From Thiobacillus denitrificans ATCC 25259 (GTDB taxonomy: Bacteria; Pseudomonadota; Gammaproteobacteria; Burkholderiales; Thiobacillaceae), in NCBI RefSeq assembly GCF_000012745.1, contig NC_007404.1, positions 186,001 through 250,000 on the forward strand: a stretch of 64,000 nt of DNA. The letters run 5' to 3'. A model generated the notes under the pieces. That model had not been told where the DNA came from. It saw nothing but the letters and a program-made list of their open reading frames with translations, and did no database searches. A program made the translations under genes and the position numbers. This document shows positions 15,464 to 46,133 of the stretch, piece after piece. Every line of letters starts with the position of its first letter. The first letter of the stretch is position 1.

Positions 15464-16642
<1,179 letters not shown>

Positions 16643-16714: not shown

Positions 16715-17497
16715 GTGACGCTGGATTTGCAAAAACTGATCGGGCGCGGCCGAAGCGTCGCGGATGACTTCGATCGAACCATCATCAGCTTCGAGTCGCC
16801 TTACCGCCTCAAGGACCTGAGCCCTGTTTCCGGAAGCGATCCCGAGACGCAGGAAGAAGGTCTGGGCGAAAAGCTCTTCAAGCTGCGCTTCGCCCAGCAC
16901 GACGAGGTGTTCAACAACGCCAGCATGCTCGTGCAAAAGCGCTACGCCTGGCGCGGCTTCCCCAAGGCCCAGCTCAAGAAGTATCCGAACCGCATCACGA
17001 TCCTGTCGTTTCACCAGGAAAAGATCGTCGGCACGGTCACGGTCGGCTACGACTCCGAAGAGGGCATGCTGGTCGACGAGATATACAAGCCGGAAATCGA
17101 CGCGTTGCGCGCGCAGGGCAGGAAGGTCGGCGAACTCAGCAAGCTCGCGATCGACGAGAACATCGGTTCCAAGCAGTTGCTCGCGAGCCTGATCCACATC
17201 GCCTATTTATATGGCGTCATCCACGACTGCACCGACGCGATCATCGAGATCGTGCCGCGCCACAAGGCCTTCTACGAGCGAATGCTCGGCTTCAAGCAGA
17301 TCGGCGAGGAACGCATGAACAACCGGGTCAACTTTCCGGTCCTGCTGATGCATCTCGAGCTCGATTACATGCGGCAGAAAATCGAGGAATTCGGCGGCCA
17401 GGGCAAAGCGGCCAAGGATCGCAGCCTCTATCCCTACTTCTTCTCGGCCCGCGATCAGCAGGGGATTCTCGCCCGGCTGCTGAGGGAGGAAGGTTGA
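16715..17497 (+). CDS. FeeM-like N-acyl amino acid synthase domain protein (GNAT fold)
   Basis: A 260-residue protein starting at GTG 16715. The core (about residues 55-215) resembles the FeeM/autoinducer-synthase branch of the GNAT fold: LRFAQHDEVFNNASMLVQKRYAWRGF, then ITILSFHQEKIVGTVTVGYD, then LVDEIYKPEIDALRAQGRKVGELSKLAI, then the helix region KQLLASLIHIAYLYG and EIVPRHKAFYERMLGF. FeeM enzymes transfer long-chain acyl groups from acyl carrier protein to amino acids such as tyrosine; the acceptor here is unknown. Its stop overlaps the TTG start of the ThiF-like gene (ttga), and that gene overlaps the nitroreductase gene, so the three are translationally coupled. It lies 72 bases after hemB with no terminator between. 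Confidence 0.75.
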   Translation: MTLDLQKLIGRGRSVADDFDRTIISFESPYRLKDLSPVSGSDPETQEEGLGEKLFKLRFAQHDEVFNNASMLVQKRYAWRGFPKAQLKKYPNRITILSFHQEKIVGTVTVGYDSEEGMLVDEIYKPEIDALRAQGRKVGELSKLAIDENIGSKQLLASLIHIAYLYGVIHDCTDAIIEIVPRHKAFYERMLGFKQIGEERMNNRVNFPVLLMHLELDYMRQKIEEFGGQGKAAKDRSLYPYFFSARDQQGILARLLREEG

Positions 17498-18369
17498 CCG
17501 CAGGCGCTTTCGATTACGACGAGGCCTTCAGCCGCAACCTCGGCTGGCTGACGCCCGATGAACAGCGGACGCTGCGCGGCAAGAAGATCGCGATCGCGGG
17601 ATTGGGCGGCGCGGGCGGCGTGCATCTGCTCACGCTCGCGCGGCTCGGGATCGGGCGTTTCCACCTGGCCGATCTCGACCGCTTCGCGCTGGTCAATTTC
17701 AATCGTCAGGCCGGGGCCGGGATGGGAAGCATCGGCGAGCCGAAGGTCGAGGTCATGGCGCGGCTGGCGCGTGACATCAATCCCGAGCTCGACATCGCGA
17801 CTTTTGACGAGGGCGTGCAGCCGCACAACGTCGACGCCTTTCTCGACGGCGTCGACCTCTACGTCGACGGCCTCGATTATTTCGTGTTTCCGGCGCGCCG
17901 TCTGGTCTACGACGCGTGTCGCGCGCGCGGCATTCCGATCACGTTCGCCGTCCCGCTCGGCATGGGCGCCGCAGTCCTCAACTTTCTTCCGGGCGGACCT
18001 AGCTTCGACGATTACTTCCAGCTCGATGGCACACCCGAGGAAGAATGGCCCGTGCGTTTCCTGGTCGGCCTCGCACCGGCCCTGCAACACCGGAGTTACC
18101 TCGTCTACCCGCAGATCGTCGATTTCAGCATTCAGCGCGTGCCCTCGACCGGACTCGCCTGCCAGTTGTGCGCCGGCATGGCGGGCACCGAAGCGCTGAA
18201 AATCCTGCTCGGCCGCGGCCCCGTCAAGGGCGTGCCGCACAGCATGCAGTTCGACGCCTACACCGGCAAACGCGTCGCGACCTGGCGTCCCGGCGGCAAT
18301 CGTCATCCGCTCAATCGCCTTGCGATCGGCTACGTCAATTGGCGACTGAAACGCGAACGCAGGGCGTGA
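17494..18369 (+). CDS. ThiF/MoeB/E1-like adenylyltransferase
   Basis: A 291-residue E1-type enzyme starting at TTG 17494, inside the stop of the previous gene and just after gggaggaagg. The nucleotide loop is IAGLGGAGGVHLLTLARLG near residue 35. The acidic/Arg block is LADLDRFALVNFNRQ, the conserved Lys lies in EPKVEVM, and the family Asp in VDGLDYF. Only one CxxC (CQLC near residue 225) is present, where MoeB/ThiF have two zinc-binding pairs, and no obvious catalytic cysteine loop is seen, so it may adenylate without forming a thioester. No ThiS/MoaD-like carrier is nearby. A fused ThiF-nitroreductase protein exists in mycobacteria (annotated MoeY), supporting a joint function with the next gene. 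Confidence 0.82.
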   Translation: MTAGAFDYDEAFSRNLGWLTPDEQRTLRGKKIAIAGLGGAGGVHLLTLARLGIGRFHLADLDRFALVNFNRQAGAGMGSIGEPKVEVMARLARDINPELDIATFDEGVQPHNVDAFLDGVDLYVDGLDYFVFPARRLVYDACRARGIPITFAVPLGMGAAVLNFLPGGPSFDDYFQLDGTPEEEWPVRFLVGLAPALQHRSYLVYPQIVDFSIQRVPSTGLACQLCAGMAGTEALKILLGRGPVKGVPHSMQFDAYTGKRVATWRPGGNRHPLNRLAIGYVNWRLKRERRA

Positions 18370-19427
18370 CGCCCGAGCTCGCGGCGGTGCTCGAGCGCGC
18401 GCGCTGGGCGCCGAGCGGGGACAACACCCAGCCTTGGCGCTTTCGGGCGCTGGGTGCCGACGAGATCGAGGTGTTGTACCGTCCGTCGGACGCCCTCGGC
18501 GTTTTCAACCTCGACCATTTCGCGGGCCACCTCGCGATGGGTGCGCTGCTCGAATCGATCGACATTGCGGCGAGCATGCACGGCTGGCGGGCCGTGATCG
18601 CGACCGACCATGCGGGCGAAGGTCGCTTTCCCATTGGGTTCGAGGCCGCAGGCAGGGCGGCCTCGCCGCTGCTACCGTTTCTTCAGGAACGCGCGACGCA
18701 GCGCAGGCCCCTGTCGCCGAAACGCCTGACCGGGGCGCAAAAGCGAATTCTCGAAGCCAGCGTCGGGGCTGCGTTCAGCGTCGAGTGGGTGGAGGGCGCC
18801 GGGGCAAAGGCCCGGCTCGGCGTCCTGCTCGCACGGGTCGACAAGGTGCGGCTGACCATTCCCGAGACTTTCGCCGTGCATCGCGACACGGTCGCCTGGG
18901 GTGCGCGCTTCAGCGAAGACCGAATTCCCGATGCGGCAATCGCCGTCGATCCGCTGCTGCTCCGGGTGATGCGCTGGGCGATGCAGTCCTGGTCGCGCGT
19001 GCACTTCCTCAATCGCTATCTGTGGGGCCACGGCCTGCCACGCGTCGAGATGGATCTGCTGCCTTCGCTCTTCTGTGGCGCCCACGCTTTGCTCGTGAGC
19101 CAGACGCCGATGAGCAGTGTCGGGGACGTGATCGCGGGCGGACGGGCCATGCAAAGGCTGTGGCTGACCGCGGCGTCGCTCGGACTGCAGGCGCAGCCCG
19201 AGATGGCGCCCGTGATCTTCTCGCGCTATGCGGCGGGTGCAACGGCGTTCACCGAGGTCGCGGAGCAGCGGCTTTACGCGGCCGCGCTGAGCGGGCGTTT
19301 TGCCGACTTCTTCGGCGCGGGCAATTGGACGCAAGCGACCTTTCTCATGCGCTTCGGTTTCGGCGCGCCCGCCCAGTCGCGCTCGCTGCGCAAACCCCTG
19401 TCCGATTTGTGGATTTCGGACGAATAA
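18366..19427 (+). CDS. Nitroreductase-like protein coupled to the ThiF-like gene
   Basis: A 353-residue protein starting at GTG 18366, overlapping the ThiF-like stop (gtga). The N-terminus has the nitroreductase flavin-site motif ARWAPSGDNTQPWRF near residue 12, and later LSQTPMSSVGDVIAGGRAMQRLWLTAASLGLQAQP-type sequence (about residues 240-275) matches the family's second half. It is much longer than ordinary nitroreductases (about 200 residues), with an inserted middle section (about residues 90-225). The reaction is unknown. With the FeeM-like and ThiF-like partners it suggests reduction or oxidation of an activated N-acyl amino acid. A strong terminator closes the operon. Confidence 0.8.
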   Translation: MTPELAAVLERARWAPSGDNTQPWRFRALGADEIEVLYRPSDALGVFNLDHFAGHLAMGALLESIDIAASMHGWRAVIATDHAGEGRFPIGFEAAGRAASPLLPFLQERATQRRPLSPKRLTGAQKRILEASVGAAFSVEWVEGAGAKARLGVLLARVDKVRLTIPETFAVHRDTVAWGARFSEDRIPDAAIAVDPLLLRVMRWAMQSWSRVHFLNRYLWGHGLPRVEMDLLPSLFCGAHALLVSQTPMSSVGDVIAGGRAMQRLWLTAASLGLQAQPEMAPVIFSRYAAGATAFTEVAEQRLYAAALSGRFADFFGAGNWTQATFLMRFGFGAPAQSRSLRKPLSDLWISDE

Positions 19428-19466
19428 AAAACCGGCAAGCCTGTCGGGCAGGCTTGCCGGTTTTCT
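19428..19466. terminator. Bidirectional terminator between the nitroreductase and PEP-CTERM genes
   Basis: aaaaccggcaagcctg and caggcttgccggtttt form a 16-base inverted repeat around the loop tcggg, with A-runs and T-runs at the ends. It serves the plus-strand triad and the convergent minus-strand PEP-CTERM gene. Confidence 0.95.
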
Positions 19467-19484
19467 TCGTTCCGCTGTCTGGCT

Positions 19485-20342
19485 TTACGCTTTGCGGCGG
19501 CGCGTCGCGAGGCCCAGGCCGACGAGGCCGAGTCCGAGCAGCGCCAGGCTGCCGGGTTCGGGAACGGCGAAGCTGAACGAGCCGTCGTTGAGCGTGTAGA
19601 TGTCGCCGGGGCCGTTGGGGGCGCCGAGGCCGGTCGTCGCGATGAAGTCTGCGGCGACCGCGCCCGAAGGCGTCGTGATGTTGTTGTTGGAGTCAGTCAG
19701 GCCCACGGTCAAGGCGCCGGCGCCAAGCAGGTCGTAGACGTCGGTGTCGGCAACGCCGTCGCCATCGGTGTCGACGAACCAGTAACCCTGCGCCACGCTG
19801 GTGACATCGAACAGGATGTCGACGTTGCCGTCGACGCCGGCCGGGTTGGCGAAGTCGATCTGGCCCTCGCCGGTACGGATGCTCAGGCTCATGATGTTGG
19901 TGCCGTCCATGGCCGTCCCGAAGCTATTGTAGTTGAGGGCGTTATCGATGTAGATGTTGAGCGTGCCGCCCGCGTCGAAGAAGAACTCCGTGTCGTCGCC
20001 CGTGGTGGCGCCATAGCTGCCGGTCCAGTCGAGGAAGGTTGCGGTGAGTTCATAGCTGACGCCGAGGCCCGAGGTGCCGGCGGGGATGGGCGAGCCGTCG
20101 TTCTGGAAACCGGTCGCGCCGATGCGGCCGACGTCGGTGAAGGTGCTGCCGGGGGCGATGCCCGTGCTCTCGGTGTAGCTGATGCCGAGATAGGTCATTT
20201 CGTCGATCGGCGTCAGCATGGCGCCGCCGCCGAGACCATCGGCATCGAAGCCCCAGTTGTCGAAGCTCATCGTGAAGGCGGAAGCGTGGCTGGTCGCTGC
20301 GGCAAGAGCGATCGCCAGGGCCGCTTTGTGCAATGTTTTCAT
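19485..20342 (-). CDS. PEP-CTERM sorting-signal protein
   Basis: A 285-residue exported protein. The signal peptide is residues 1-about 22 (cleavage near SHASA). The mature part is Gly/Thr/Asp-rich with few charges. The C-terminus has VPEPGS, a hydrophobic segment (LALLGLGLVGLG) and RRRKA, the exosortase recognition tail. A DTDGDGVADTD stretch near residue 195 resembles a calcium-binding loop. Such proteins are processed by exosortase and are often tied to exopolysaccharide and floc formation; similarity to the flocculation-associated PepA group is possible but not established here. A sigma-54 element at 20423-20438 and a 17-bp box at 20525-20541 lie upstream, matching the second PEP-CTERM gene. 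Confidence 0.92.
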   Translation of the reverse strand: MKTLHKAALAIALAAATSHASAFTMSFDNWGFDADGLGGGAMLTPIDEMTYLGISYTESTGIAPGSTFTDVGRIGATGFQNDGSPIPAGTSGLGVSYELTATFLDWTGSYGATTGDDTEFFFDAGGTLNIYIDNALNYNSFGTAMDGTNIMSLSIRTGEGQIDFANPAGVDGNVDILFDVTSVAQGYWFVDTDGDGVADTDVYDLLGAGALTVGLTDSNNNITTPSGAVAADFIATTGLGAPNGPGDIYTLNDGSFSFAVPEPGSLALLGLGLVGLGLATRRRKA

Positions 20343-20568: not shown

Positions 20569-23364
20569 TCAGGAAGCAGCCGGCAGGCTCTTGAGTAGGG
20601 TCTCCGCCGCAGCGCGTTCCTCGAAGCGCGGCGTTTCGGCGAGCAGCTGCTCGAGCAGCTTGCGCGCACCTGGGCGGTCTCCGGTGCGGGCGAGCGCCAC
20701 CGCGTGGTGGTAGCGCAGGCTCGCGTTCTTCGGTGTCTGGGCCATCGCCTTGCGCAGGTACCCGAGTCCGCGCCGGGCCTGGCCTTGTTCGACCAGAACC
20801 CAGCCCAGGGTGTCCTGGACGGCCGGGTTGGTCGGCGCGAGTCGGTTGGCCTGGGTCGCGAGCTCGAGCGCGCGCGGGTCTCGCTGCTGCAGATAGAGGC
20901 TGGCGAGATTGTTCAGGATCATGACGTTGCGTGGTTCGTGCTTCAGGATCTGCCGATAAGTCTCCGCAGCGCGCGCGCTTTGCCCGGTGACAAGGTAGTA
21001 CCCGGCTGCGTATGCGGCGACGCCGCTGTCCTTCGGATGCTGCCGGATCCAGTCCTCGAGCCGGCGGTCGGCCGCCGCACGGTTCTGCCCCGAGAGGACG
21101 GTCGCTCGGTGGAACTGGACCAGCACAGCCGGCCCGGCGCCATGTTCCAGCGCGCGGACGTAGGCCGGCACAGCCTGCGCGATGCGTTTTTCGGCGAGCA
21201 GAATGTCGCCTTCGCGTACGAAGCCGACGGCGGAATCGGGGTGGCCCTTCTGGATGTCGCGCGCGACGAGAAGCGCGGCCTCGGGGCGCTTGGCGGCGAG
21301 TTCCAGCTTGATCAATGCCTCCTGGCTTTTGAGATGTCCCGGCGCGAGTTCCAGCGCGTGCAGCAGGTTGCGGCGCGCTTCGTCGAGTTTACCGTCGGCC
21401 AGCTGCACCTGCGCGAGACGCACGAAGCCTTCCGGCGACTGCCTAGTCTCCCGGGTAAGCCGGCTGAAGGTGCTCGCCGAACTCGCCTTGTCGTCGAGCG
21501 CGAGTTGCACCGTGCCGAGCAGGTTGAGCGCGGCAGGGTGGTCGGGGTTGGCGCGGACCGCCTCGTTGGCCAGGGCGAGCGCCTTCTGGCCCTCGTTGCG
21601 GGCCAGGTAATGCCGTACCAGTTCGATGCGCGGCTGTATCGCCTTGCCGTCGGCGCGGGCGGCTTTCTCGAGCCAGTCGATCGAGGCCTGCTCCTGACCA
21701 TTGCGGGCAGCCATCCGCGAGAGCGCGAGCATCGCGGCGACCCGGTTCTTGTCCTGGGCGAGCGCGCGCTCGAGACGCATGCGGGCCGCGTCCGCCTTGT
21801 TCTCGGCCACGTCGAGCTGCGCGAGGCTGGCGACCGCGGGGAAGAACGCCGCGTCGGCGGCGAGCGCCTGTTCGAAATTACGGCGGGCGGCAAGCTTGTC
21901 GTTCTTGCCGAGGTAGGCCTGCCCGGCCAGGTGATGGATTTTCGCGCTGGCGTCGCCTTTTTTCTGTAGGGTCGCAAGCGCGGCGAGTGCGCGGTCGTAA
22001 TCCTTGCGGCTCAGATAGGCGACCGCAAGCAGCGTGTCCGCCTGGGAGCCCGAAGAATGCTGTGAGGCATCGGTCAACTCGTCGATGGCGTCTTGCGTGT
22101 TCCCGGCGGCGAGCTGACTCAGGCCGAGCTGCGTACGTATCGTGACGTTGCCGGGTTCGAGCGCGAGCGCGCGTTCGAAGAGCGCCGCGGCCTGGCTCGG
22201 GTTGCCGTTGGCCATCTGCGCTTCGCCCGCCAGCGCCAGACCCTGTGCATCCCGCACCCCGGGGGCGAGGAAAGGGGCGAGCGTGACGAGCGCCTTGTCG
22301 AATTGCTTCGACTTGATTTGCGTCGTCGCAAGCATCTTGAGCCCTTCCGCGTGGCCGGGAACCCGCAGCAGAAAGCGCTTGAAATACGTTTCCGCCTCCT
22401 GGTAGGAGCCGAGCGCATGGGCGCTCATGCCGGCGAGCATCAGGCTCGGAACATGGTCGGGCGAGACTTTCAGGGCTTCCTGAATCGCGGCGTTTGCCTC
22501 GGCGAATTTCTTCTCGCTGTAGGCGATCGACGCCTCGAGGTAATGTGCGCGGGTCGATTTGGGCGCGAGCTTCCTGATCACGGCCAAGTACTCGCGCGCG
22601 CGCTGGGTGTCTCCCGCCTTGACGTGAATCGCGACCAGACTCTGCAGCGCATCCAGATTGTTCGGTTCGATCTTCACAGCCTTCGAATAGGCAGCGAGCG
22701 CCTTCGCCGTATCCTTGCCGGCCAATTCGAGGTTGCCGAGGTGAATCCAGGTGCGGGCGCGCTTGTGCTCGAGCTTGAGCGCGCGTTCAAGCCAGTCGCG
22801 CGCCTTCGCCGCGTCACCCGTTGCCAGCGCGCAGCGCGAAAGGCCCCAGTAGGTGGGCGGGTTGCCGGGCGAGGCATCGTAGGACTGCTGGAACAGATTG
22901 CACGCCTCCTCCAGTTTCCGCTGGTTCAGCAGGGCCTCGCCACGCAGTTGCAGGATGCGCGACAGGCGCTCCTTCGGTCCCTGCGTGTCCGGCTGGATTT
23001 CGTCGAGGACGCGCGCGTACTCGCCCATCAGCAGCAGGGCTTCCCCGAGCAGGGGCTCGAGGGTGGCGCGGCCGACGCCGAGCCGCTCGGCTTGTCGAAG
23101 TTCCTTTTCCGCTTCGGCGCCGAAGCCCGCCTTGAGGTAGACCTGTCCCAGCAGGAGCCGGGCTTCGGCGCTGTCGGGATTCTTCTGGATCGCGTTCTTC
23201 AGTTCGATGACGCTGCCCTTGAGGTCGCCCTTGTCCTCGAAGTCCTTGGCGCGCTGGACGTGTTCCTGGGCGCTGAGTCCGGCCGTGGGATCGCAGCCGG
23301 CGAGCGGCGCGCAAAAGGCCAGGACCAGCAGCGACGCAATCAGGGGAGCGGGATGTCGAGTCAT
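20569..23364 (-). CDS. prsT: PEP-CTERM system TPR-repeat lipoprotein PrsT (copy 1)
   Basis: A 931-residue lipoprotein. The signal peptide ends in the lipobox LAGC (Cys near residue 24), so it is a lipid-anchored envelope protein. The rest is a near-continuous array of TPR helices, e.g. GSVIELKNAIQKNPDSAEARLLLGQVYLKAG near residue 50 and NNLASLYLQQRDPRALELATQANRLAPTNPAVQDTLGWV near the end. It is typical of PrsT proteins that accompany PrsK/PrsR and exosortase loci; the role is probably scaffolding in export or polysaccharide assembly. It is the last gene of the epsB-prsK-prsR-prsT-prsT run, 32 bases after the second prsT. Confidence 0.93.
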   Translation of the reverse strand: MTRHPAPLIASLLVLAFCAPLAGCDPTAGLSAQEHVQRAKDFEDKGDLKGSVIELKNAIQKNPDSAEARLLLGQVYLKAGFGAEAEKELRQAERLGVGRATLEPLLGEALLLMGEYARVLDEIQPDTQGPKERLSRILQLRGEALLNQRKLEEACNLFQQSYDASPGNPPTYWGLSRCALATGDAAKARDWLERALKLEHKRARTWIHLGNLELAGKDTAKALAAYSKAVKIEPNNLDALQSLVAIHVKAGDTQRAREYLAVIRKLAPKSTRAHYLEASIAYSEKKFAEANAAIQEALKVSPDHVPSLMLAGMSAHALGSYQEAETYFKRFLLRVPGHAEGLKMLATTQIKSKQFDKALVTLAPFLAPGVRDAQGLALAGEAQMANGNPSQAAALFERALALEPGNVTIRTQLGLSQLAAGNTQDAIDELTDASQHSSGSQADTLLAVAYLSRKDYDRALAALATLQKKGDASAKIHHLAGQAYLGKNDKLAARRNFEQALAADAAFFPAVASLAQLDVAENKADAARMRLERALAQDKNRVAAMLALSRMAARNGQEQASIDWLEKAARADGKAIQPRIELVRHYLARNEGQKALALANEAVRANPDHPAALNLLGTVQLALDDKASSASTFSRLTRETRQSPEGFVRLAQVQLADGKLDEARRNLLHALELAPGHLKSQEALIKLELAAKRPEAALLVARDIQKGHPDSAVGFVREGDILLAEKRIAQAVPAYVRALEHGAGPAVLVQFHRATVLSGQNRAAADRRLEDWIRQHPKDSGVAAYAAGYYLVTGQSARAAETYRQILKHEPRNVMILNNLASLYLQQRDPRALELATQANRLAPTNPAVQDTLGWVLVEQGQARRGLGYLRKAMAQTPKNASLRYHHAVALARTGDRPGARKLLEQLLAETPRFEERAAAETLLKSLPAAS

Positions 23365-23396: not shown

Positions 23397-26180
23397 CTAG
23401 CTCTTTTTGTTGCGCAGCCGGGCGAGCAATTCACGCGCTTCCTGTTCCTGGGGAAAGCGCGTCGCATCGGCGAGCAGTCGCTCGAGTTCGCCGCGCGCGC
23501 GGTCGTGCTCGCCGGTCTGATACAGGGTTGCGGCGACGTGATAGCGGATTTCGGCGGCGTCGGGGGCCTTGGAAAGTGCTTTGCGCAGATGTGTCAGCCC
23601 CTGGGCCGGCTGCCCTTGTTGGGCGAGGATCCAGCCGTAGGTGTCGAGGATCGCCGGATCTTCGGGCCGCAGTTTGAGCGCGCGCGTCGCGTAGCCGAGC
23701 GCACGCGCGTCCTTCGACTGGTGCAGCGCCCACGCGAGATTGTTCAGCACGACGAGGTCGTCGGGTGCCTTTTTGTGCAGGACGAGGTAGTGGCGCGCCG
23801 CTGCCGCGTACTCGTGACGCTTGATCAGGCTTTCGGCGAGGAGCAGCCGCGCCGGGGCGTCGTCGGCGTGCGTGGAGAGCCAGGCGAGGATACGTTTTTC
23901 GCCCTCCGGGGCGCGTTGCAGCGCGCTCAGGACACGGTGCTGGCGGGCGAGCGTCGCGCTCGACGGTGCGATCGCGTGGGCGTGCTCGAAGGCCGCGAGC
24001 GCGGCCGGGAAATCTTTCTGGACGAACGCCGTGTCGCCTTCCAGGACGAAGCCCGCCGCCTGCTCGGGTTTCTGCGCCTGCATCCGGCGCGCGATGCGAT
24101 ACGCAGCTTCGAAGCGCTCGGCTTCGATTTCGATGCGGCCCAGCAGCAGCTGTGCGTCGCGGAAGTCGGGCTCCCGCTGCAAAGCGGCCTGCAGCGACCG
24201 GCGCGCGCCTGCGGCGTCCTTCGCCACCCACTGGGCGTACGCGAGCTTCGCGAGCGGCGCGGCCTGATCGGGCTGGCGCTCGACCAGCTTGCGATAGCTG
24301 GCGAGGGCGTTCGCCGAATCGCCGAGCGCAAGCTGGGCGCTCCCAAGCAGTTCGAGCGCGGCCGGACTGTCGGGCGCGAGATTTACCGCTTCGCGAGCGA
24401 CCGTGAGCCCCTGCGCGGCGCTGCCCTTGCGCAGCAGATGGCTGCCGAGGGCAAGCCGCGGCTCCTGGGCTTGTGGATGCGCGGCCGCGGCTTTTTCCAG
24501 CCAGCGCGTGTGCGTTTTCTCGTCGCCACTGCGCAAGGCGAGTTCAGCCAACGCGAGCATCGCCCCGAGGTGTTTGGGGTCGGCCGCGAGTATGCTTTCG
24601 AAGCGCTGGCGCGCGGCCGCCGGCCGCTTCTCCTGCAGGTCGAGCTGCGCGAGGTTGGCAGCCGCCGGGAAAAATCCCCGGTCGAGCTTGAGCGCCTCCT
24701 CGAAGCTCGCGCGCGCGCGGACCTTGTCCTGCTTGCCGAGATAGGCCGCACCCCGGTAGTTCCACACCAGCGGATTGGCGCCCTCCTTCTTTTCGAGGGC
24801 GGCGATGCTCGCCAGCGCCGCATCGAACTGCTTCCGCTTCAGGCCGTCGAGAATGAGGAAGGTGTGCGCGCGGCTGCCCGCGCCCTCCATGCCGGCGGCT
24901 GTCCGCAGGTCGGCCAGCGCGCGTTCGTCGCCGAGCCCCAGGCGCGAAATGCCGAGTTCGGTGCGGATCGCCGCGTTGCCGGGGTCGCGGCTCGCCGCGT
25001 CCTCAAAATAGCGTGCGGCCTGCGCGAAGTCGCGCTTCGCCAAGGCGATTTCACCGGCCACGGTGAGCGCCGCCGGGTCGTCTGCGTTCCGCCTGAGCGC
25101 GACGCCAATCGTGCGCGCGGCGTCGTCGAAACGTCCCATGCGCAATTGCGTGGCGGCCAGCAGGCGCACGGCATAGGGGTCGTGTGGCGCGGCCTGCACG
25201 ACCTTGTTGAAGTGGGCCTCCGCCGTCTGCAGGTTGCCGAGCGCATATTCCACGGTCCCCCCCAGTTGCAACGCGGGCAGAAATTCCGGTGCGCTCTTCA
25301 GTACCGCCGCCAGACCATCGCGCGCGCGTTCGGTCTTGCCTTCCTTGAAGTCGATCAGCGCGCGGAGGTAGTGGGCCTGGAGGCTGCTCGGCGTGAACGC
25401 GAGCGCGCCGTCGACTTCCTTGCGCGCCTCGGCGAGCCTGTTCTCGGCGAGCGCGATGCCGGCGAGCGCCAGCCGTGCGTTCGGGTGGCGGGGGGCGATG
25501 CGCAGGATGTCGCGGTAGGTCGCCGTGGCCTCGGCGGATTTTCCACTCGCGTAGAGCAGGTCGCCTTTCAGCAGCAGGCTGTCGCGATGCGCGGGGTCGA
25601 TCTGCAAGGCCTCGTCGACCGCTTTCATGGCGTCGGCAGGTTTGCCGTCGGCCGCGGCGAGCTGGGCGAGCGCGAGCTGCACTTCGGCGTTGCGCGGTGC
25701 GTCGGCCTGTGCCTGCGCCAGGGTCTTGCGCGCGTCGTCCTTGCGGCCGAGGCCGAGTTCGGCGGTCGCGCGCAGCGCGTGCAGGGCGAGGGCGTCGTCG
25801 CTCTTGCCCGAAGGCGCCGGAAGCTCGTCGAGCAGCCGCTGGAACGCGCGCTGGCCGAGCAGGGCGCGCGCGATCATGACGTTCGCCGCGGCCGCGGGGT
25901 AGCCGGCTTCGCGCGCACGCCTGAATTCCTTTTCGGCTGCGGCGAGATCGAGCCTTGCGAGATAGAGCTTGCCGAGTTCGAAGCGGGCCTCTGCGTCGTC
26001 CTCGTCGGCGGCCAGCGCGTTCTTGAGCTGAATGATCGCGGATTTGTCGTCGCCGGCCGCTGCCATTTTCTTCGCCTGGTCGACGAGCGAGGGCGCGCTT
26101 TCGTCGGCACAGCCGGCAAGCAGCGCACTGCCGACGAAGAGCGCGGGCAGAAGGCGGCGGAGTTCAAGAAACGCGGGCAT
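23397..26180 (-). CDS. prsT: PEP-CTERM system TPR-repeat lipoprotein PrsT (copy 2)
   Basis: A 927-residue lipoprotein starting at ATG 26180, five bases after ggagg; the GTG two codons earlier overlaps that ribosome site and is less likely. Lipobox LLAGC is followed by TPR repeats throughout, with the same start pattern as copy 1 (SAIIQLKNALAADEDDAEARFELGKLYLARLDLAAAEKEFRRA). The two copies are tandem and nearly equal in length but clearly diverged, so the duplication is not recent. The C-terminal region again shows LNNLAWALHQSKDARALGYATRAL and DTYGWILAQQGQ. It lies between prsR and copy 1. Confidence 0.92.
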   Translation of the reverse strand: MPAFLELRRLLPALFVGSALLAGCADESAPSLVDQAKKMAAAGDDKSAIIQLKNALAADEDDAEARFELGKLYLARLDLAAAEKEFRRAREAGYPAAAANVMIARALLGQRAFQRLLDELPAPSGKSDDALALHALRATAELGLGRKDDARKTLAQAQADAPRNAEVQLALAQLAAADGKPADAMKAVDEALQIDPAHRDSLLLKGDLLYASGKSAEATATYRDILRIAPRHPNARLALAGIALAENRLAEARKEVDGALAFTPSSLQAHYLRALIDFKEGKTERARDGLAAVLKSAPEFLPALQLGGTVEYALGNLQTAEAHFNKVVQAAPHDPYAVRLLAATQLRMGRFDDAARTIGVALRRNADDPAALTVAGEIALAKRDFAQAARYFEDAASRDPGNAAIRTELGISRLGLGDERALADLRTAAGMEGAGSRAHTFLILDGLKRKQFDAALASIAALEKKEGANPLVWNYRGAAYLGKQDKVRARASFEEALKLDRGFFPAAANLAQLDLQEKRPAAARQRFESILAADPKHLGAMLALAELALRSGDEKTHTRWLEKAAAAHPQAQEPRLALGSHLLRKGSAAQGLTVAREAVNLAPDSPAALELLGSAQLALGDSANALASYRKLVERQPDQAAPLAKLAYAQWVAKDAAGARRSLQAALQREPDFRDAQLLLGRIEIEAERFEAAYRIARRMQAQKPEQAAGFVLEGDTAFVQKDFPAALAAFEHAHAIAPSSATLARQHRVLSALQRAPEGEKRILAWLSTHADDAPARLLLAESLIKRHEYAAAARHYLVLHKKAPDDLVVLNNLAWALHQSKDARALGYATRALKLRPEDPAILDTYGWILAQQGQPAQGLTHLRKALSKAPDAAEIRYHVAATLYQTGEHDRARGELERLLADATRFPQEQEARELLARLRNKKS

Positions 26181-26221
26181 GCGCACCTCCGGTATTGTCG
26201 TGTGGGTTCTCTGCGAAGCCC

Positions 26222-27571
26222 TTATTTCATGCCGATCTTCGCCATCAGATCGTACAAGGTCGGCCGGGTGATTCCGAGCAGTTCGGCGGCCTGCGCAATG
26301 CTGCCGTCGCTGTGCGCCAAGGCGCGGCTGACGGCGATCCGTTCGGCGTTCTCGCGGGCCTGACGCAGATTGAAGGGGCGCGGCTCGACCTCGCCGGCGT
26401 CGAGGCCGAGGTCGGCGGCGGTGATCTGGCTGCCGTCCGCCATGATCGTCGCGCGCTTGATCAGGTTTTCCATTTCGCGCACGTTGCCGGGCCAGGGATG
26501 CGCTTCCAGCGCCGCGAGGGCGTCTGCGGTGAAGCCGCGGATGCGGCGGCCGAGCTCGCGGGCATAGCGTTCGAGAAATGCCTGCGCGAGCAATACGGCG
26601 TCGCCAGGGCGTTCGCGCAGCGGCGGGATGTTCACCGAAATTTCGGAGAGCCGGTAATAGAGGTCTTCGCGGAAGCCGCCCTCGCGGATCATCGCCGCGA
26701 GGTCACGGTGCGTCGCGCATACGACGCGCACGTCGACGGGAATCTCGCCGCGCCCGCCGAGGCGTTCGATCACGCGTTCCTGCAGGAAGCGCAACAGCTT
26801 GGCCTGTAGCGGCATCGGCAGGTCGCCGATCTCGTCGAGGAAGAGCGTGCCTTCGTTGGCGTATTCGATGCGGCCGATGGTTTGCTTGGCGGCCCCGGTG
26901 AACGCGCCTTTCTCGTAGCCGAACAATTCCGATTCGAGGAGCGTGTCGGGAATCGCCGCGCAGTTGATCGCGACGAAGCGCTTGTTCGAGCGCGGCGACA
27001 GCTCGTGCACGCCGCGTGCGAGAACTTCCTTGCCTGTGCCGGATTCGCCGAGCAGGAGCACGGTCGCATTGGCCGGGGCCACTTTCTCGATCGTGCGGCA
27101 GATCTTCAGCATCGGCTCGCTGCTCGTGATGAGGCCCTGAAGGGAAGAACCCCGCTGCCGCGTAAGCCGGCGGTTTTCGGTTTCCAGCCCGTGGACGTGG
27201 AGCGCGCGCGCGATCATGAGCGCGAGGACGTCGGGATCGAACGGCTTCTGGAAAAAGTCGTAGGCACCGAGGCGGATGGCTTTGACCGCGTTGCTGCGAT
27301 CGAGATTGCCGGTGACCACGATCACCTTGGTGACCGGCGAGAGTGAAAGGATCTGTTGCAGCGCTTCGAGCCCTTCGGTTGCGCCGTCGACGTCCGGAGG
27401 CAGACCGAGGTCGAGCAGCACGACCGGCGGTTCGTGGCGGCGCAGCTGGGCGATCGCGCTGTCGCGGTCTGCGGCGACGATCAGCTCGTAATCGGCAAGG
27501 CTCCACTTGAGCTGCTTTTGCAGCCCAAGGTCGTCCTCGACCAGCAGAATCTTTTGTTTGGCGTCGCTCAT
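26222..27571 (-). CDS. prsR: PEP-CTERM-box response regulator PrsR (sigma-54 activator)
   Basis: A 449-residue NtrC-type regulator. The receiver domain (residues 1-about 125) has phospho-Asp in VVLLDLGLPPD near residue 54. The AAA+ domain (about residues 145-375) has Walker A GESGTGKE and the sigma-54 contact loop GAFTGA within GYEKGAFTGAAKQ. The Fis-type HTH is at the C-terminus (GSIAQAAELLGITRPTLYDLMAKIG). It is the cognate regulator of PrsK, whose stop overlaps its start (atga). It should activate sigma-54 promoters; three such elements lie in or around this locus and the second PEP-CTERM gene. Confidence 0.95.
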   Translation of the reverse strand: MSDAKQKILLVEDDLGLQKQLKWSLADYELIVAADRDSAIAQLRRHEPPVVLLDLGLPPDVDGATEGLEALQQILSLSPVTKVIVVTGNLDRSNAVKAIRLGAYDFFQKPFDPDVLALMIARALHVHGLETENRRLTRQRGSSLQGLITSSEPMLKICRTIEKVAPANATVLLLGESGTGKEVLARGVHELSPRSNKRFVAINCAAIPDTLLESELFGYEKGAFTGAAKQTIGRIEYANEGTLFLDEIGDLPMPLQAKLLRFLQERVIERLGGRGEIPVDVRVVCATHRDLAAMIREGGFREDLYYRLSEISVNIPPLRERPGDAVLLAQAFLERYARELGRRIRGFTADALAALEAHPWPGNVREMENLIKRATIMADGSQITAADLGLDAGEVEPRPFNLRQARENAERIAVSRALAHSDGSIAQAAELLGITRPTLYDLMAKIGMK

Positions 27572-29649
27572 GCGGCGTCTCCTCCGGAAGGTGCATTATT
27601 GTCTAACGGCAGGGTCAGGCGGAAGCGGGTGCCCTGACCGGGGCTGCTTTCGACCTCGATGTTTCCGCCGAGCGCGCGCAAGGTCTCGCGGCATTCGTAG
27701 GCGCCGATGCCCATACCCGCGCCCTTGGTCGAGTCGAAGGGTTGAAAGAGGCGGTGACGGATGAAGTCCTCGTCCATGCCGCTGCCGGTGTCGGCGATCT
27801 CGACCACGGCCTGCCCCCCTTCCTCGAACGCGCGGAGGCTGACCGACCCGGTCTGCGGCGTCGCCTCGAGCGCGTTCTGCAACAGGTGCCCGACCGCGCG
27901 TTCGAGCCGATGACGCTCGGCGCGCACGCGCAGCCCGGGCGGCGCGCTCAACTCCGGGCGCAGCTTGAACGCCTGTTTGCTGGCAATGGCTTCACGCAGC
28001 ACGTCGGCCAGGACGACCGACTGCACCTCGGTGTCGCCACCGCCGCGGCGCAGTTGGGCCAGCACCTTGTTCATCCGCGTGACGGCGCTTTCCACCGTCT
28101 CGAGCATGTCCGCCTGGAACTCCGGATTGTGCTTGTGTTTCTCGGCGTTGGCGAGAAGCAGCGAGAGTTGGGCGACCAGGTTTTTCAGGTCGTGGATGAC
28201 GAAAGTCGTGGTGCGGTTGAACGACTCGAACTGGCGCGCGACGATGAGTTCGTTCGAGGCACGCATCTGCGCCAGATGGGCCGCCGCCTGGCGCGCGGTG
28301 ACCTTGAGCAGGTCGCTCACCTCCCAGTTGAAGGTGACCTTGCCGAGCGAATGCTTGAGCACGACGAAGCCGAGCAATTCCTCGTGCAGCATCAGCGGAA
28401 TAACTAGCCAGGCGTCGCCGGCCTCACGCAGCCAGCGCGGCGCGTCGAGATCGCCGTACAGGTCCGGACGGGTTTTCATCTCGTCGAGGTCGACGACCCA
28501 CTGCTTGCTTGTGAGCCATTGGAGGAAGGCCGAATCGGTGGGCTCGACGCCCTGCAAATCGGCCCAGTTCCAGTGGCTCGCGCGCTGATACCCGGCGTTG
28601 CCTTCGCGCAGCCATACCGCCCCGCCGGGGCTTTCGACCAGTCTCGCGAGTGCCTCGACGGCACGGTCGCACAAGGCCTCGCCGGGCCTGCCTTCGGTCA
28701 GCGCCCGCGTGAACTTCAGCCATTCCTCGCGGTAGTCGTAGCGGTAACTGAAGAAGTGTTTGGCGAGGAACACCCGCAGCCGCGCGCGCAGCGTGCCGGA
28801 AAAAATCAGCAGCGCGAGTACCATCGCGGCGGCGAAGATGAAGACCGTCTGCACGACGTCGCCCCATTCGCCGCCGAACAGTCGCAGGTAATACCCGGCG
28901 CCCGCCATGAACAGCAGGTAGATTCCGGCGCCGAGAAGGCTCGCGGTATGGAAGGCCATGCTGCGCGACAGGCCGACCGGCGCGGACCATTCCGGATTGC
29001 GCGCGGCCGAGATCGCGATCAGCGGCGTGATCAGGGCAGCGACGTAGCCGCGAGCGGCCCAGACCCGCAGGTCGAGTCCGCCGAACAGCATGGCGTTCGC
29101 GTACAGATAAAAATCGTAGACGTACAGGCCGCCGAGGCCGAGGCAGAGAAACTTGATCGCCCAGCGGTCTTCCGGGCGGGTGCTGCGATACACCTGCTCG
29201 GTTAGCACCAGGCCGATCGTTGCGAGCATCAGCAGGAAGAGGTTGGTCGTCCAGAGCGCAAAAGCGCGCGATGCAGGCGCCCAGAAAGGCAGCACGCTCA
29301 GGAGCAGCAGGCCCGCGACCAGCGCCGTGGCGAGCGCCTGTATCAGACGCAGGGGCACCGGAAATGGCGTGCCCGATGCAAGGCGCAGACGCAGGATGTA
29401 GAGCAACAGCGCGAGCCACGCGCCGTCGCGCGCGACTTCGAAGACCAGTTGTAAGCGCGGGAGCGGCGTGGCGAAGGCGGCGAGCGCGGCCGAAGCCGCC
29501 CAGACGGCAGTGAGCGCGGTCGCGAGGCCGAGCAGACGTCCCTGTGACCGGCGGCGCCAGCTCGCGACGATCAGGCCCGACAGGGCCAGGAAGGCGAGCG
29601 CCGCGAGTCCATGGCCGAGCGCGGACAGGAGGAGCAGCGTGACGGCCAT
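27568..29649 (-). CDS. prsK: PEP-CTERM system membrane histidine kinase PrsK
   Basis: A 693-residue sensor kinase. The N-terminal half has about ten hydrophobic segments (residues 1-about 275), followed by a GAF-like stretch (about residues 310-450), the phospho-acceptor helix FVIHDLKNLVAQLSLLLANA near residue 485, and an ATPase domain with EIADTGSGMDEDFI and GIGAYECRETLRALGG. The H-box His-Asp-Leu-Lys-Asn is the PrsK variant. It is coupled to prsR by a 4-base overlap. The signal sensed is unknown. Confidence 0.94.
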   Translation of the reverse strand: MAVTLLLLSALGHGLAALAFLALSGLIVASWRRRSQGRLLGLATALTAVWAASAALAAFATPLPRLQLVFEVARDGAWLALLLYILRLRLASGTPFPVPLRLIQALATALVAGLLLLSVLPFWAPASRAFALWTTNLFLLMLATIGLVLTEQVYRSTRPEDRWAIKFLCLGLGGLYVYDFYLYANAMLFGGLDLRVWAARGYVAALITPLIAISAARNPEWSAPVGLSRSMAFHTASLLGAGIYLLFMAGAGYYLRLFGGEWGDVVQTVFIFAAAMVLALLIFSGTLRARLRVFLAKHFFSYRYDYREEWLKFTRALTEGRPGEALCDRAVEALARLVESPGGAVWLREGNAGYQRASHWNWADLQGVEPTDSAFLQWLTSKQWVVDLDEMKTRPDLYGDLDAPRWLREAGDAWLVIPLMLHEELLGFVVLKHSLGKVTFNWEVSDLLKVTARQAAAHLAQMRASNELIVARQFESFNRTTTFVIHDLKNLVAQLSLLLANAEKHKHNPEFQADMLETVESAVTRMNKVLAQLRRGGGDTEVQSVVLADVLREAIASKQAFKLRPELSAPPGLRVRAERHRLERAVGHLLQNALEATPQTGSVSLRAFEEGGQAVVEIADTGSGMDEDFIRHRLFQPFDSTKGAGMGIGAYECRETLRALGGNIEVESSPGQGTRFRLTLPLDNNAPSGGDAA

Positions 29650-29665: not shown

Positions 29666-31060
29666 TTAGCGCACGCCCTTTCCCCAGAGCACGACCTGCG
29701 CCGTCTGGGAGAGGATCATGAGGTCGAGAAACAGGCTGTGGTTCTTGACGTAGTAGAGGTCGTACTGCAGTTTGTGCATCGCGTCCTCGTCGGACGCGCC
29801 GTAGGGATAACGCACCTGCGCCCACCCCGTGATGCCCGGCTTGACGATGTGGCGCACGCCGTAATACTGGATTTTCTGCGTGAGATCCTGCACGAAATAC
29901 GGGCGCTCTGGGCGGGGCCCCACGAAGCTCATCTCGCCGAAAAAGACGTTGAATATCTGCGGCAGTTCATCAATGCGGGTGCGCCGGATGAAGCGCCCGG
30001 TACAGGTCACGCGATCGTCGTTCTGCCCCGCCCAGCGCGGCTGCCCGTCCTTCTCGGCGTCGACGCACATGCTGCGGAATTTGAGGATGGTGAAGTTGCG
30101 TCCGCCCTGACCGACACGTTCCTGCCGATACAGGACCGGCCCCGGGCTTTCGAGCTTGATGAGGAGCGCGGTCAGCGCCATGATCGGCAGGCACACCGCG
30201 AGCATCGCGCTGCTGACCAGGAGGTCGAACATGCGCTTCGCGGTGTCCCGGAGCATGCCTTGATGAAACCCCTCCGACAGGATCATCCAGCTCGCGTTCA
30301 GCGAGTCGAGCTGCAGGTGGCCGTTTTCGCGCTCGAAGAAGCTCGACAGTTCGAGGACGCGGATGCCGAGCAGTTTGCAGGCGAGGAGGTCCTGCACGGG
30401 CATGCCGCCGCCGCGGCGGTCGCGGACCGCCAGAACGATCTCGCCGATGTGCAGGCGTCGCGCGAGCAGTGGCAGCGACTCGTCGCTGTCGAGAATGCGC
30501 GCATGGTCGACGAAATGGTGGCTGCCGCCGACGGGCAGATAGCCGACCACGTGAACGTTGCTGGCGTGGCCGCGCCGTGTGAGCAAGGCCTCGATATGGG
30601 CCGCGCGGCTGCCCGTGCCGATGACGAGCGTGCGCGTCTTGAGTGCGCCGACGCGCGCCCAGCGCAGGAAAAGCGCACGGCTGAGCAGGATGCCGAGAAG
30701 CGCGATGCCGAAGGAAAGCAGGAAGGCGCCACGCCCGACGAGCAGGACGGGCACGAAATAGAACAGCAGGCTCATCGTCACGAGCCCGAGGCCGAAGCTC
30801 AGGCCGAGACGATGGAGCAGGGTGCGGACGCCGCCTTGCCACTCGAGATCGTACAGCCCGCTCGCGGTCATCAGCGCCAGCATGACGCCGGCGAAGGTGA
30901 GCGCCTTGGGCATGAGCGGCTGCAGATCCTCGGGCACCGCGCCGGCGTCGAGAAAGCGCGCGCTGACGCCGACGTAGATCGCGCCGCCGAGGATCAGCGC
31001 CTCGAGCGCGACCAGCAGCAGCAAATTCAGCGGAACGTAGTGCCTGAAAAATCGGATCAC
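29666..31060 (-). CDS. XrtA/PEP-CTERM system glycosyltransferase (EpsB-type sugar transferase)
   Basis: A 464-residue polyprenyl-phosphate sugar-phosphate transferase that would start exopolysaccharide repeat-unit synthesis. Hydrophobic segments lie at residues 10-30, 45-65, 80-100 and 105-125. A nucleotide-binding-like middle (LVIGTGSRAAHIEALL) follows, then the bacterial sugar-transferase domain with KRMFDLLVSSAMLAVCLPIMA near residue 270, QERVGQGGRNFTILKFRSM, and FIRRTRIDELPQIFNVFFGEMSFVGPRPERP. It starts at GTG 31060, 25 bases downstream of the predicted sigma-54 transcript start. It leads the regulatory operon. No exosortase gene is in this window. Confidence 0.9.
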   Translation of the reverse strand: MIRFFRHYVPLNLLLLVALEALILGGAIYVGVSARFLDAGAVPEDLQPLMPKALTFAGVMLALMTASGLYDLEWQGGVRTLLHRLGLSFGLGLVTMSLLFYFVPVLLVGRGAFLLSFGIALLGILLSRALFLRWARVGALKTRTLVIGTGSRAAHIEALLTRRGHASNVHVVGYLPVGGSHHFVDHARILDSDESLPLLARRLHIGEIVLAVRDRRGGGMPVQDLLACKLLGIRVLELSSFFERENGHLQLDSLNASWMILSEGFHQGMLRDTAKRMFDLLVSSAMLAVCLPIMALTALLIKLESPGPVLYRQERVGQGGRNFTILKFRSMCVDAEKDGQPRWAGQNDDRVTCTGRFIRRTRIDELPQIFNVFFGEMSFVGPRPERPYFVQDLTQKIQYYGVRHIVKPGITGWAQVRYPYGASDEDAMHKLQYDLYYVKNHSLFLDLMILSQTAQVVLWGKGVR

Positions 31061-45386: not shown

Positions 45387-46133
45387 TTAGACGCGGGTCT
45401 TGCGGCGGCGTGCGGCGGCGAGTCCGGCCATGCCGATGCCGAGCAGCGCGAGCGAAGCGGGCTCGGGCACGCCAGGCAGGCTGCCCTGCTCGAGCAGCGC
45501 GTAGTGGATCGTCCCGCCGGCGTTCAGCACCTCGCCGAAGCCGTCGCCCCAGAACTGCACTTTCGTGAAGTTGCCCGAGTCGTCGAAGGCGGCGACGAAG
45601 ACACCGGCGCCGCCGTTGGTCAGGTAGCCGTCCCCGAGGGTGGTCGAATGACCGACGAGAATAGGCGCGCCGTCGTCGAACGAAATGTAAAGATCGGACG
45701 GCTGGCAGCAGGTCGACCAGTCACCGACTTCGAAGCCGATCGCGTTGACCGCGGTGTCGAAAGTCAGCGTCATGCCGCTGCCGATCGCGCCGATGCCCGG
45801 CCCGGAGCCGGCTGGGTCGATGCTGACCATATGGCCGCTGGTCTGCCGGCTCGGACTCGAGTTATAGAGCGTGTAGACCGACGAGAACATGGAGCTACCG
45901 TCGTTCATGCTCACGACATAGTCACCCTGATCCGAGGACGTCCCGCTCAAGGCGCTCGACCAGACGTCGTGGGTGGCAGTGCCGCCCGCGGCGGCAACCG
46001 TGCTGTTGAAGTTCGCAAGGCCGCCGTCGAAGTCGTCGTAGACGGTCACGATCGTCGCATTGGCGAGACTCGCGGCCACCGACGACGCGGCAAACAGGGC
46101 GATCGGGGCGAAGCGCTTGAAGCTTGGTTTCAT
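45387..46133 (-). CDS. PEP-CTERM sorting-signal protein
   Basis: A 248-residue exported protein. The signal peptide is residues 1-about 26 (cleavage near ASLANA), and the beta-rich mature part is low in charge. The C-terminal tail is VPEPAS, then LALLGIGMAGLAA, then RRRKTRV, the exosortase signal. One Cys pair (STCCQPS) lies near residue 135. It is unlike the first PEP-CTERM protein in sequence apart from the sorting tail, yet it carries the same sigma-54 element and 17-bp box upstream at the same spacing, so the two are probably co-regulated. Confidence 0.92.
   Translation of the reverse strand: MKPSFKRFAPIALFAASSVAASLANATIVTVYDDFDGGLANFNSTVAAAGGTATHDVWSSALSGTSSDQGDYVVSMNDGSSMFSSVYTLYNSSPSRQTSGHMVSIDPAGSGPGIGAIGSGMTLTFDTAVNAIGFEVGDWSTCCQPSDLYISFDDGAPILVGHSTTLGDGYLTNGGAGVFVAAFDDSGNFTKVQFWGDGFGEVLNAGGTIHYALLEQGSLPGVPEPASLALLGIGMAGLAAARRRKTRV

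Follow-up and report, generated by a model that had tools for sequence, protein, structure and literature searches.

In the acyl-oxazolone pathway described in the literature, an adenylate closes intramolecularly to an oxazolone ring and a flavoprotein carries out a desaturation with O2 (PMC10404671, PMC12856293, PMC12479983). TyzA, a FeeM-fold acyltransferase, TyzB, a ThiF-type cyclase, and TyzC, a flavin-dependent oxidase (FDO), are reported to yield C12:0-tyrazolone, in a study building on the Pseudoalteromonas rubra enzymes OxzAB (de Rond et al.; PMC10404671). The order of steps in TyzABC is described as not obligate, and Rv1355c, named TrzS, is a fusion of cyclase and FDO which cyclises and then desaturates (PMC12856293). 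In Massilia kyonggiensis and Thalassotalea, genes for an N-acyl amino acid synthase (NAS), a ThiF protein and a nitroreductase follow each other less than 10 bp apart or overlap, and producers with this gene set have been proposed to share one route to N-acyl dehydrotyrosines (PMC12479983). Here, we describe a stretch of 64,000 nucleotides of Thiobacillus denitrificans ATCC 25259 (NC_007404.1, positions 186,001 to 250,000 of the forward strand, hereafter the window) carrying three overlapping genes, the triad, which very probably constitute an unfused form of the acyl-oxazolone / N-acyl dehydroamino acid pathway. The assignment is based on the genes, their folds, the conserved ATP-site residues and gene linkage.

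The triad, encoded on the forward strand, comprises a FeeM-type NAS of 260 residues (16715..17497, GTG start; PF21926), a ThiF/E1-like adenylating enzyme of 291 residues, predicted to be an oxazolone cyclase (17494..18369, TTG start; NF006077/PRK08223), and an Acg-type FDO of 353 residues, the predicted desaturase (18366..19427, GTG start). The NAS stop codon overlaps the TTG start of the second gene by 4 bases (TTGA), and the stop of the latter overlaps the GTG of the FDO gene (GTGA). Upstream, hemB (porphobilinogen synthase; 15578..16642, forward strand; NF006762, 510 bits) lies outside the pathway and ends 72 bases before the NAS start. Downstream, a hairpin (19428..19466), terminator-like on both strands, separates the convergent FDO and pepA genes; the fold of 19424-19484 has an energy of -31.7 kcal/mol, a value equalled by none of 200 shuffles, which average -16.8 (z -5.3). 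The hairpin is missing from the output of a simple terminator scan, and, lying between convergent genes, it could serve as a shared terminator for the FDO and PEP-CTERM genes. Coordinates, start codons and fold energy agree with what had been proposed from the letters alone (the sequence-only reading), namely three genes with 4-base overlaps behind hemB and a strong terminator after them. Near its start, at about 15660-15692, hemB contains a short in-frame direct repeat, MRRMRRMRRD.

The first protein scores 165 bits against FeeM (PF21926; cut-off 27, E 1.1e-48), and FeeM 2G0B is its sole solved relative by sequence among the matches listed, which confirms the suggested likeness to N-acyl amino acid synthases. 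An ordinary acetyltransferase was ruled out, FeeM being the only Pfam family found at E up to 0.01. Elsewhere, NAS genes occur in tandem (L113 3924-8175; L057 7264-9214; L050 5530-7737), and a ThiF-FDO fusion of 758 residues follows them in L113, a locus titled Planctomycetota. The third protein matches Nitroreductase (PF00881) at E 3.7e-8 and has an Acg-type architecture with a lid insertion; this architecture accounts for the large extra middle section that the sequence-only reading had seen in a nitroreductase-like protein, and an ordinary dimeric nitroreductase was rejected on this architecture. Residues D125/D128 of the cyclase, as well as R162 and Q277, are conserved and located where equivalents of TrzS D217, R540 and Q651 would be expected. 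All three window proteins match NF011425 in order over its 989 positions, far under its cut-off.

The second protein matches ThiF (PF00899) at E 7.7e-42 and scores 461 bits on NF006077/PRK08223 (cut-off 266). Residues R14, N70, R71, K84, D125 and D128 are kept among its relatives, and its predicted model (pLDDT 88.8) matches AclA, MoeB and ThiF; a literature search for AclA found no paper. Its best profile match among the solved structures listed is TcdA, tRNA threonylcarbamoyladenosine dehydratase. The adenylation core is thus intact, as had been claimed, and the single CxxC is indeed there (CQLC, residues 220-223), whereas MoeB/ThiF sulphur-carrier E1 enzymes have two CxxC pairs. It is highly improbable that this enzyme is a conventional E1, acting on a sulphur or ubiquitin-like carrier from another locus, and has its gene neighbours by coincidence. 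It shares fold and adenylation core with MoeB/ThiF, and C142 and C223 are invariant in a nearer set of 21 relatives, so that a cysteine role may exist there, a point which counts for an E1 and against a cyclase. Neither any cysteine nor the CxxC is invariant, however, in a diverse set of 16 relatives, and the protein remains under the cut-offs of the MoeB/ThiF equivalog models (TIGR02356, 84.5 of 275; NF006444, 78 of 449); on these two grounds an ordinary sulphur-carrier E1 was rejected. The constant acyltransferase neighbour and the fusion to FDO in relatives, the latter drawing in part on a listing of 120 of 2681 proteins, also speak against it, as do two further ThiF-superfamily genes in the genome (G000:C1:550747-551154 and 2462976-2463440), which are perhaps housekeeping E1 enzymes.

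In the proposed route, NAS would join an acyl chain, delivered as acyl-acyl carrier protein or acyl-coenzyme A, to the amino group of an amino acid, as its homology to FeeM suggests, with an aromatic residue (Tyr or Phe) as the most likely substrate. At the cyclase, the amide oxygen would displace adenosine monophosphate and close a 5(4H)-oxazolone ring, without a ubiquitin-like carrier. The flavin mononucleotide (FMN) oxidase, judging from homology to TyzC/TrzS, would then desaturate the amino-acid part with O2, giving an acyl-oxazolone able to hydrolyse to an N-acyl dehydroamino acid. The sequence-only reading had anticipated that an amino acid is N-acylated, that its carboxylate is adenylated and that a flavin enzyme follows with a redox reaction, and these points stand; its scheme was incomplete, lacking the intramolecular oxazolone closure and the desaturation with O2. 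It was right that mycobacteria carry the last two genes as one fused protein ('MoeY'), which is Rv1355c, that is TrzS. It was mistaken in holding that no such pathway is known, OxzAB, TyzABC, TrzAS and the NasY clusters having been described, and a hitherto undescribed pathway was rejected as the literature already describes the chemistry (PMC10404671, PMC12856293, PMC12479983). Since the triad fits the described clusters in kind and coupling, we regard it as a further, unfused member of the known pathway.

Adjacency counts support the conserved, co-functioning set that had been envisaged. Among 100 related genomes, 59 cyclase matches exceed the cut-off, and for 57 of these a FeeM-type match lies no more than 6 kb away, in a count which admitted only the 67 FeeM matches of at least 92 bits and dropped weaker ones, from 48 bits downwards. 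Across 56 genomes of the genus, NAS is present in 50, the cyclase in 49 and both in 48. Of 475 confirmed places, the best 80 were examined as named cyclase loci: 54 of them have FDO either next to the cyclase, on whichever strand, or fused with it, and nine are ThiF-FDO fusions. The six of these loci with 80-87% cyclase identity are all titled Thiobacillus, and Massilia-type loci are near relatives of the window locus. A split arrangement, with a methyltransferase gene between cyclase and NAS, is seen in L045 (3102-4037 and 6259-7242), L046 and L047, where an alpha/beta hydrolase gene precedes the cyclase and, in L045, overlaps with it; this hydrolase was found in 3 and the methyltransferase in 4 of the 35 sequences searched.

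Several observations weigh against the pathway assignment. The window FDO does not attain the cut-off of any NCBIfam model it was compared with, reaching 104.5 bits on the Acg family FMN oxidoreductase model NF047509 (cut-off 199), and the window proteins score 73.7 and 105.2 bits on the Rv1355c (TrzS) family NF005901 (cut-off 476). The equation of D125/D128 with TrzS D217, and of R162/Q277 with TrzS R540/Q651, is one we infer from position only. Within the genus, FDO stands beside the cyclase in 25 of the 49 cyclase-bearing genomes and is absent from that place in the other 24; cyclisation is therefore kept more widely than desaturation. A search for the Acg family anywhere in these 24 genomes and two others gave matches over cut-off in 5 of the 26, of which 4 belong to the 24, and a 20-bit fragment in one further genome. 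As 12 of the remaining FDO-less genomes are estimated to be 99-100% complete, the absence does not merely reflect missing sequence, although a very divergent FDO is possible. FDO is likewise neither beside nor fused to the cyclase in 26 of the 80 named loci, and a NAS of at least 60 bits lies in the stretch at only 31, the other 49 including some where the contig ends. A laxer NAS profile, which left 27 of the 80 loci without NAS, drifted in its last round from 79 to 102 matches and was not used.

The acyltransferase beside the cyclase is of two kinds. In 398 genomes sampled over the phylum, the cyclase subfamily occurs in 16, all of them with an acyltransferase nearby, within 4.3 kb. A FeeM-type gene lies 144-269 bases from the cyclase in 3 of the 16, and TIGR03694, the 'PEP-CTERM/exosortase system-associated acyltransferase', lies 41 bases to 4.2 kb from it in 13, six of whose proteins were checked singly. 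Judging from these gene neighbourhoods, the ACYLTRANSFERASE of the cyclase gene set can apparently be swapped between genomes, being FeeM-type or TIGR03694. Against the FeeM model, the TIGR03694 proteins reach 28-42 bits, and no match to TIGR03694 was found in the T. denitrificans genome. Their occurrence in the FeeM-type place predicts that TIGR03694 proteins would make N-acyl amino acids, an idea for which we claim no novelty. The pairing is not strict from the acyltransferase side: 10 of the 59 exosortase genomes without this cyclase have TIGR03694 (G411, G458, G270 and 7 others), which hence often goes without the cyclase.

Directly downstream of the triad, and convergent with it, is an XrtA/PEP-CTERM locus which the sequence-only reading had not recorded. 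All its genes are on the reverse strand: a PepA-like PEP-CTERM protein (19485..20342; NF033554, 127 bits, cut-off 80; PF07589), two PrsT genes (20569-23364 and 23397-26186; TIGR02917, 808 and 1127 bits for the pair, cut-off 312) and, each over the cut-off of its model, PrsR (26222-27571; TIGR02915), PrsK (27568-29649; TIGR02916) and a glycosyltransferase (29666-31060; TIGR03013). By an in-house pattern, one more gene of the window, at 45387-46133 and also on the reverse strand, encodes a protein with a C terminus of PEP-CTERM-like type. Haft et al. 2006 report two EpsH genes in this strain, with Tbd_0195-0198 consecutive among the associated genes (PMC1569441); in the main text of that paper, ThiF, nitroreductase and acyltransferase do not occur. 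Genus loci without FDO (L037, L039, L040, L041, L044 and similar) have a PEP-CTERM gene directly behind or near the cyclase.

Whether the triad acts together with this neighbouring envelope system is evenly poised. The linkage suggests that it may, and a role in the envelope or exopolysaccharide is our best guess because of the association of cyclase and exosortase, though the product may also be diffusible. In the phylum sample, exosortase is found in 14 of the 16 cyclase genomes against 59 of 382 others (Fisher p 1.4e-9), and by genus in 10 of 12 with the cyclase against 46 of 201 others (p 3.5e-5); as 9 of the 16 cyclase genomes come from one family, these p values suggest more independence than there is. 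In 44 related genomes from outside the genus, exosortase accompanies the cyclase in 8 of 9 and is present in 7 of 35 without it (p 2.7e-4). Where both occur, they share a contig in 11 of 14 genomes, at distances of 2.9, 2.9, 17, 26, 28, 35, 36, 36, 45, 104 and 372 kb, the nearest exosortase being within 50 kb of the cyclase in 9 of the 14. PEP-CTERM genes, called by the in-house pattern and not by a hidden Markov model, occur at 16 of 22 genus loci, a set that includes one locus (G043) with NAS and no cyclase, against 1 of 20 arbitrary control stretches from 12 genus genomes.

These counts, together with the TIGR03694 partner in 13 of 16, stand against a product secreted on its own, as surfactant, signal or antimicrobial, and functionally unconnected with exosortase, for which the linkage would merely reflect shared lineage or a shared envelope/biofilm region. 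This reading is nonetheless a serious contender, if somewhat short of even. Two of the 16 cyclase genomes (G072 and G213) have no exosortase match, counting FeeM-type NAS alone gives no excess of exosortase in the phylum sample (4/36 vs 69/362), and in the T. denitrificans genome (one contig of 2,909,809 bases), which has two exosortase matches, the nearer is the one 104 kb from the cyclase; the concentration in one family points the same way. A tighter tie, in which acyltransferase and cyclase together belong to the working exosortase/PEP-CTERM system and the oxazolone acts as an activated donor of acyl groups or as an anchoring lipid, is improbable. On this reading, surface proteins or exopolysaccharide would be the recipients, the oxazolone would be saturated where FDO is lacking, and desaturation would be optional and stabilising. 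We know of no settled role for exosortases beyond the cleavage of sorting signals.

A different question is whether the ring is merely a transient aid to desaturation, the end product in the cell being an open-chain N-acyl dehydroamino acid of the kyonggic or thalassotalic acid type. We consider this possible but rather unlikely. No acyl-oxazolone was observed in the three-gene producers, a producer without the ThiF and nitroreductase genes is reported to make saturated compounds only (PMC12479983), and Massilia-type loci are the near relatives noted above. On the other hand, oxazolones hydrolyse during acid or alcohol work-up (PMC12856293), so that the open form may be an artefact, and a cyclase serving desaturation alone fails to explain the half of the genus which keeps it without a neighbouring FDO.

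The physiological role of oxazolones has been called a major unresolved question (PMC12856293). The chemistry is already known, and less expected is the company which the gene set keeps with the exosortase system; a conserved link between cyclase and exosortase, if true, would make both systems testable together in environmental bacteria, and the cyclase pairing provides a concrete activity prediction for TIGR03694 proteins. What this analysis adds is the pairing of cyclase and acyltransferase, the cyclase-exosortase counts, and the cyclase without FDO in half of the genus. We do not claim priority for the cyclase-exosortase link: among the papers listed by a literature search, none contains both 'exosortase' and 'ThiF', and 'exosortase' and 'PEP-CTERM' are absent from the main texts of PMC10404671, PMC12856293 and PMC12479983. 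A link between NAS and exosortase was published by Craig et al. 2011, as cited in PMC4897644, PMC7293339 and PMC11072679, and the stieleriacine cluster contains a PEP-CTERM gene (PMC7293339). Compared through these citations, the window agrees with that work in having NAS beside PEP-CTERM genes, while here it is the cyclase that is counted against exosortase.

Among systems with related chemistry, TcdA resembles the cyclase in its E1-like, ATP-dependent ring closure, which needs no carrier and takes place on a small group derived from an amino acid, and differs in acting on tRNA and in having no FDO or acyltransferase partner. OxzAB and TrzAS (Rv1356c-Rv1355c) comprise the same three activities, with ThiF and FDO fused there and separate in the window, whose proteins score under the fusion-family cut-offs. 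TyzABC (Rv2336, Rv2338c, Rv2337c) shares with the triad three separate genes for a FeeM-fold acyltransferase, a ThiF-type cyclase and a single-domain FDO; tyzA, however, is on the opposite strand, whereas the window genes overlap in one direction, adjoin PEP-CTERM genes and have a product predicted from genes alone. The closest published arrangement is that of the NasY-ThiF-nitroreductase clusters of Massilia kyonggiensis, Thalassotalea and Stieleria, whose genes are separate and, in the first two, overlap or almost do, and whose products are known, where the window triad is known from its genes (PMC12479983).
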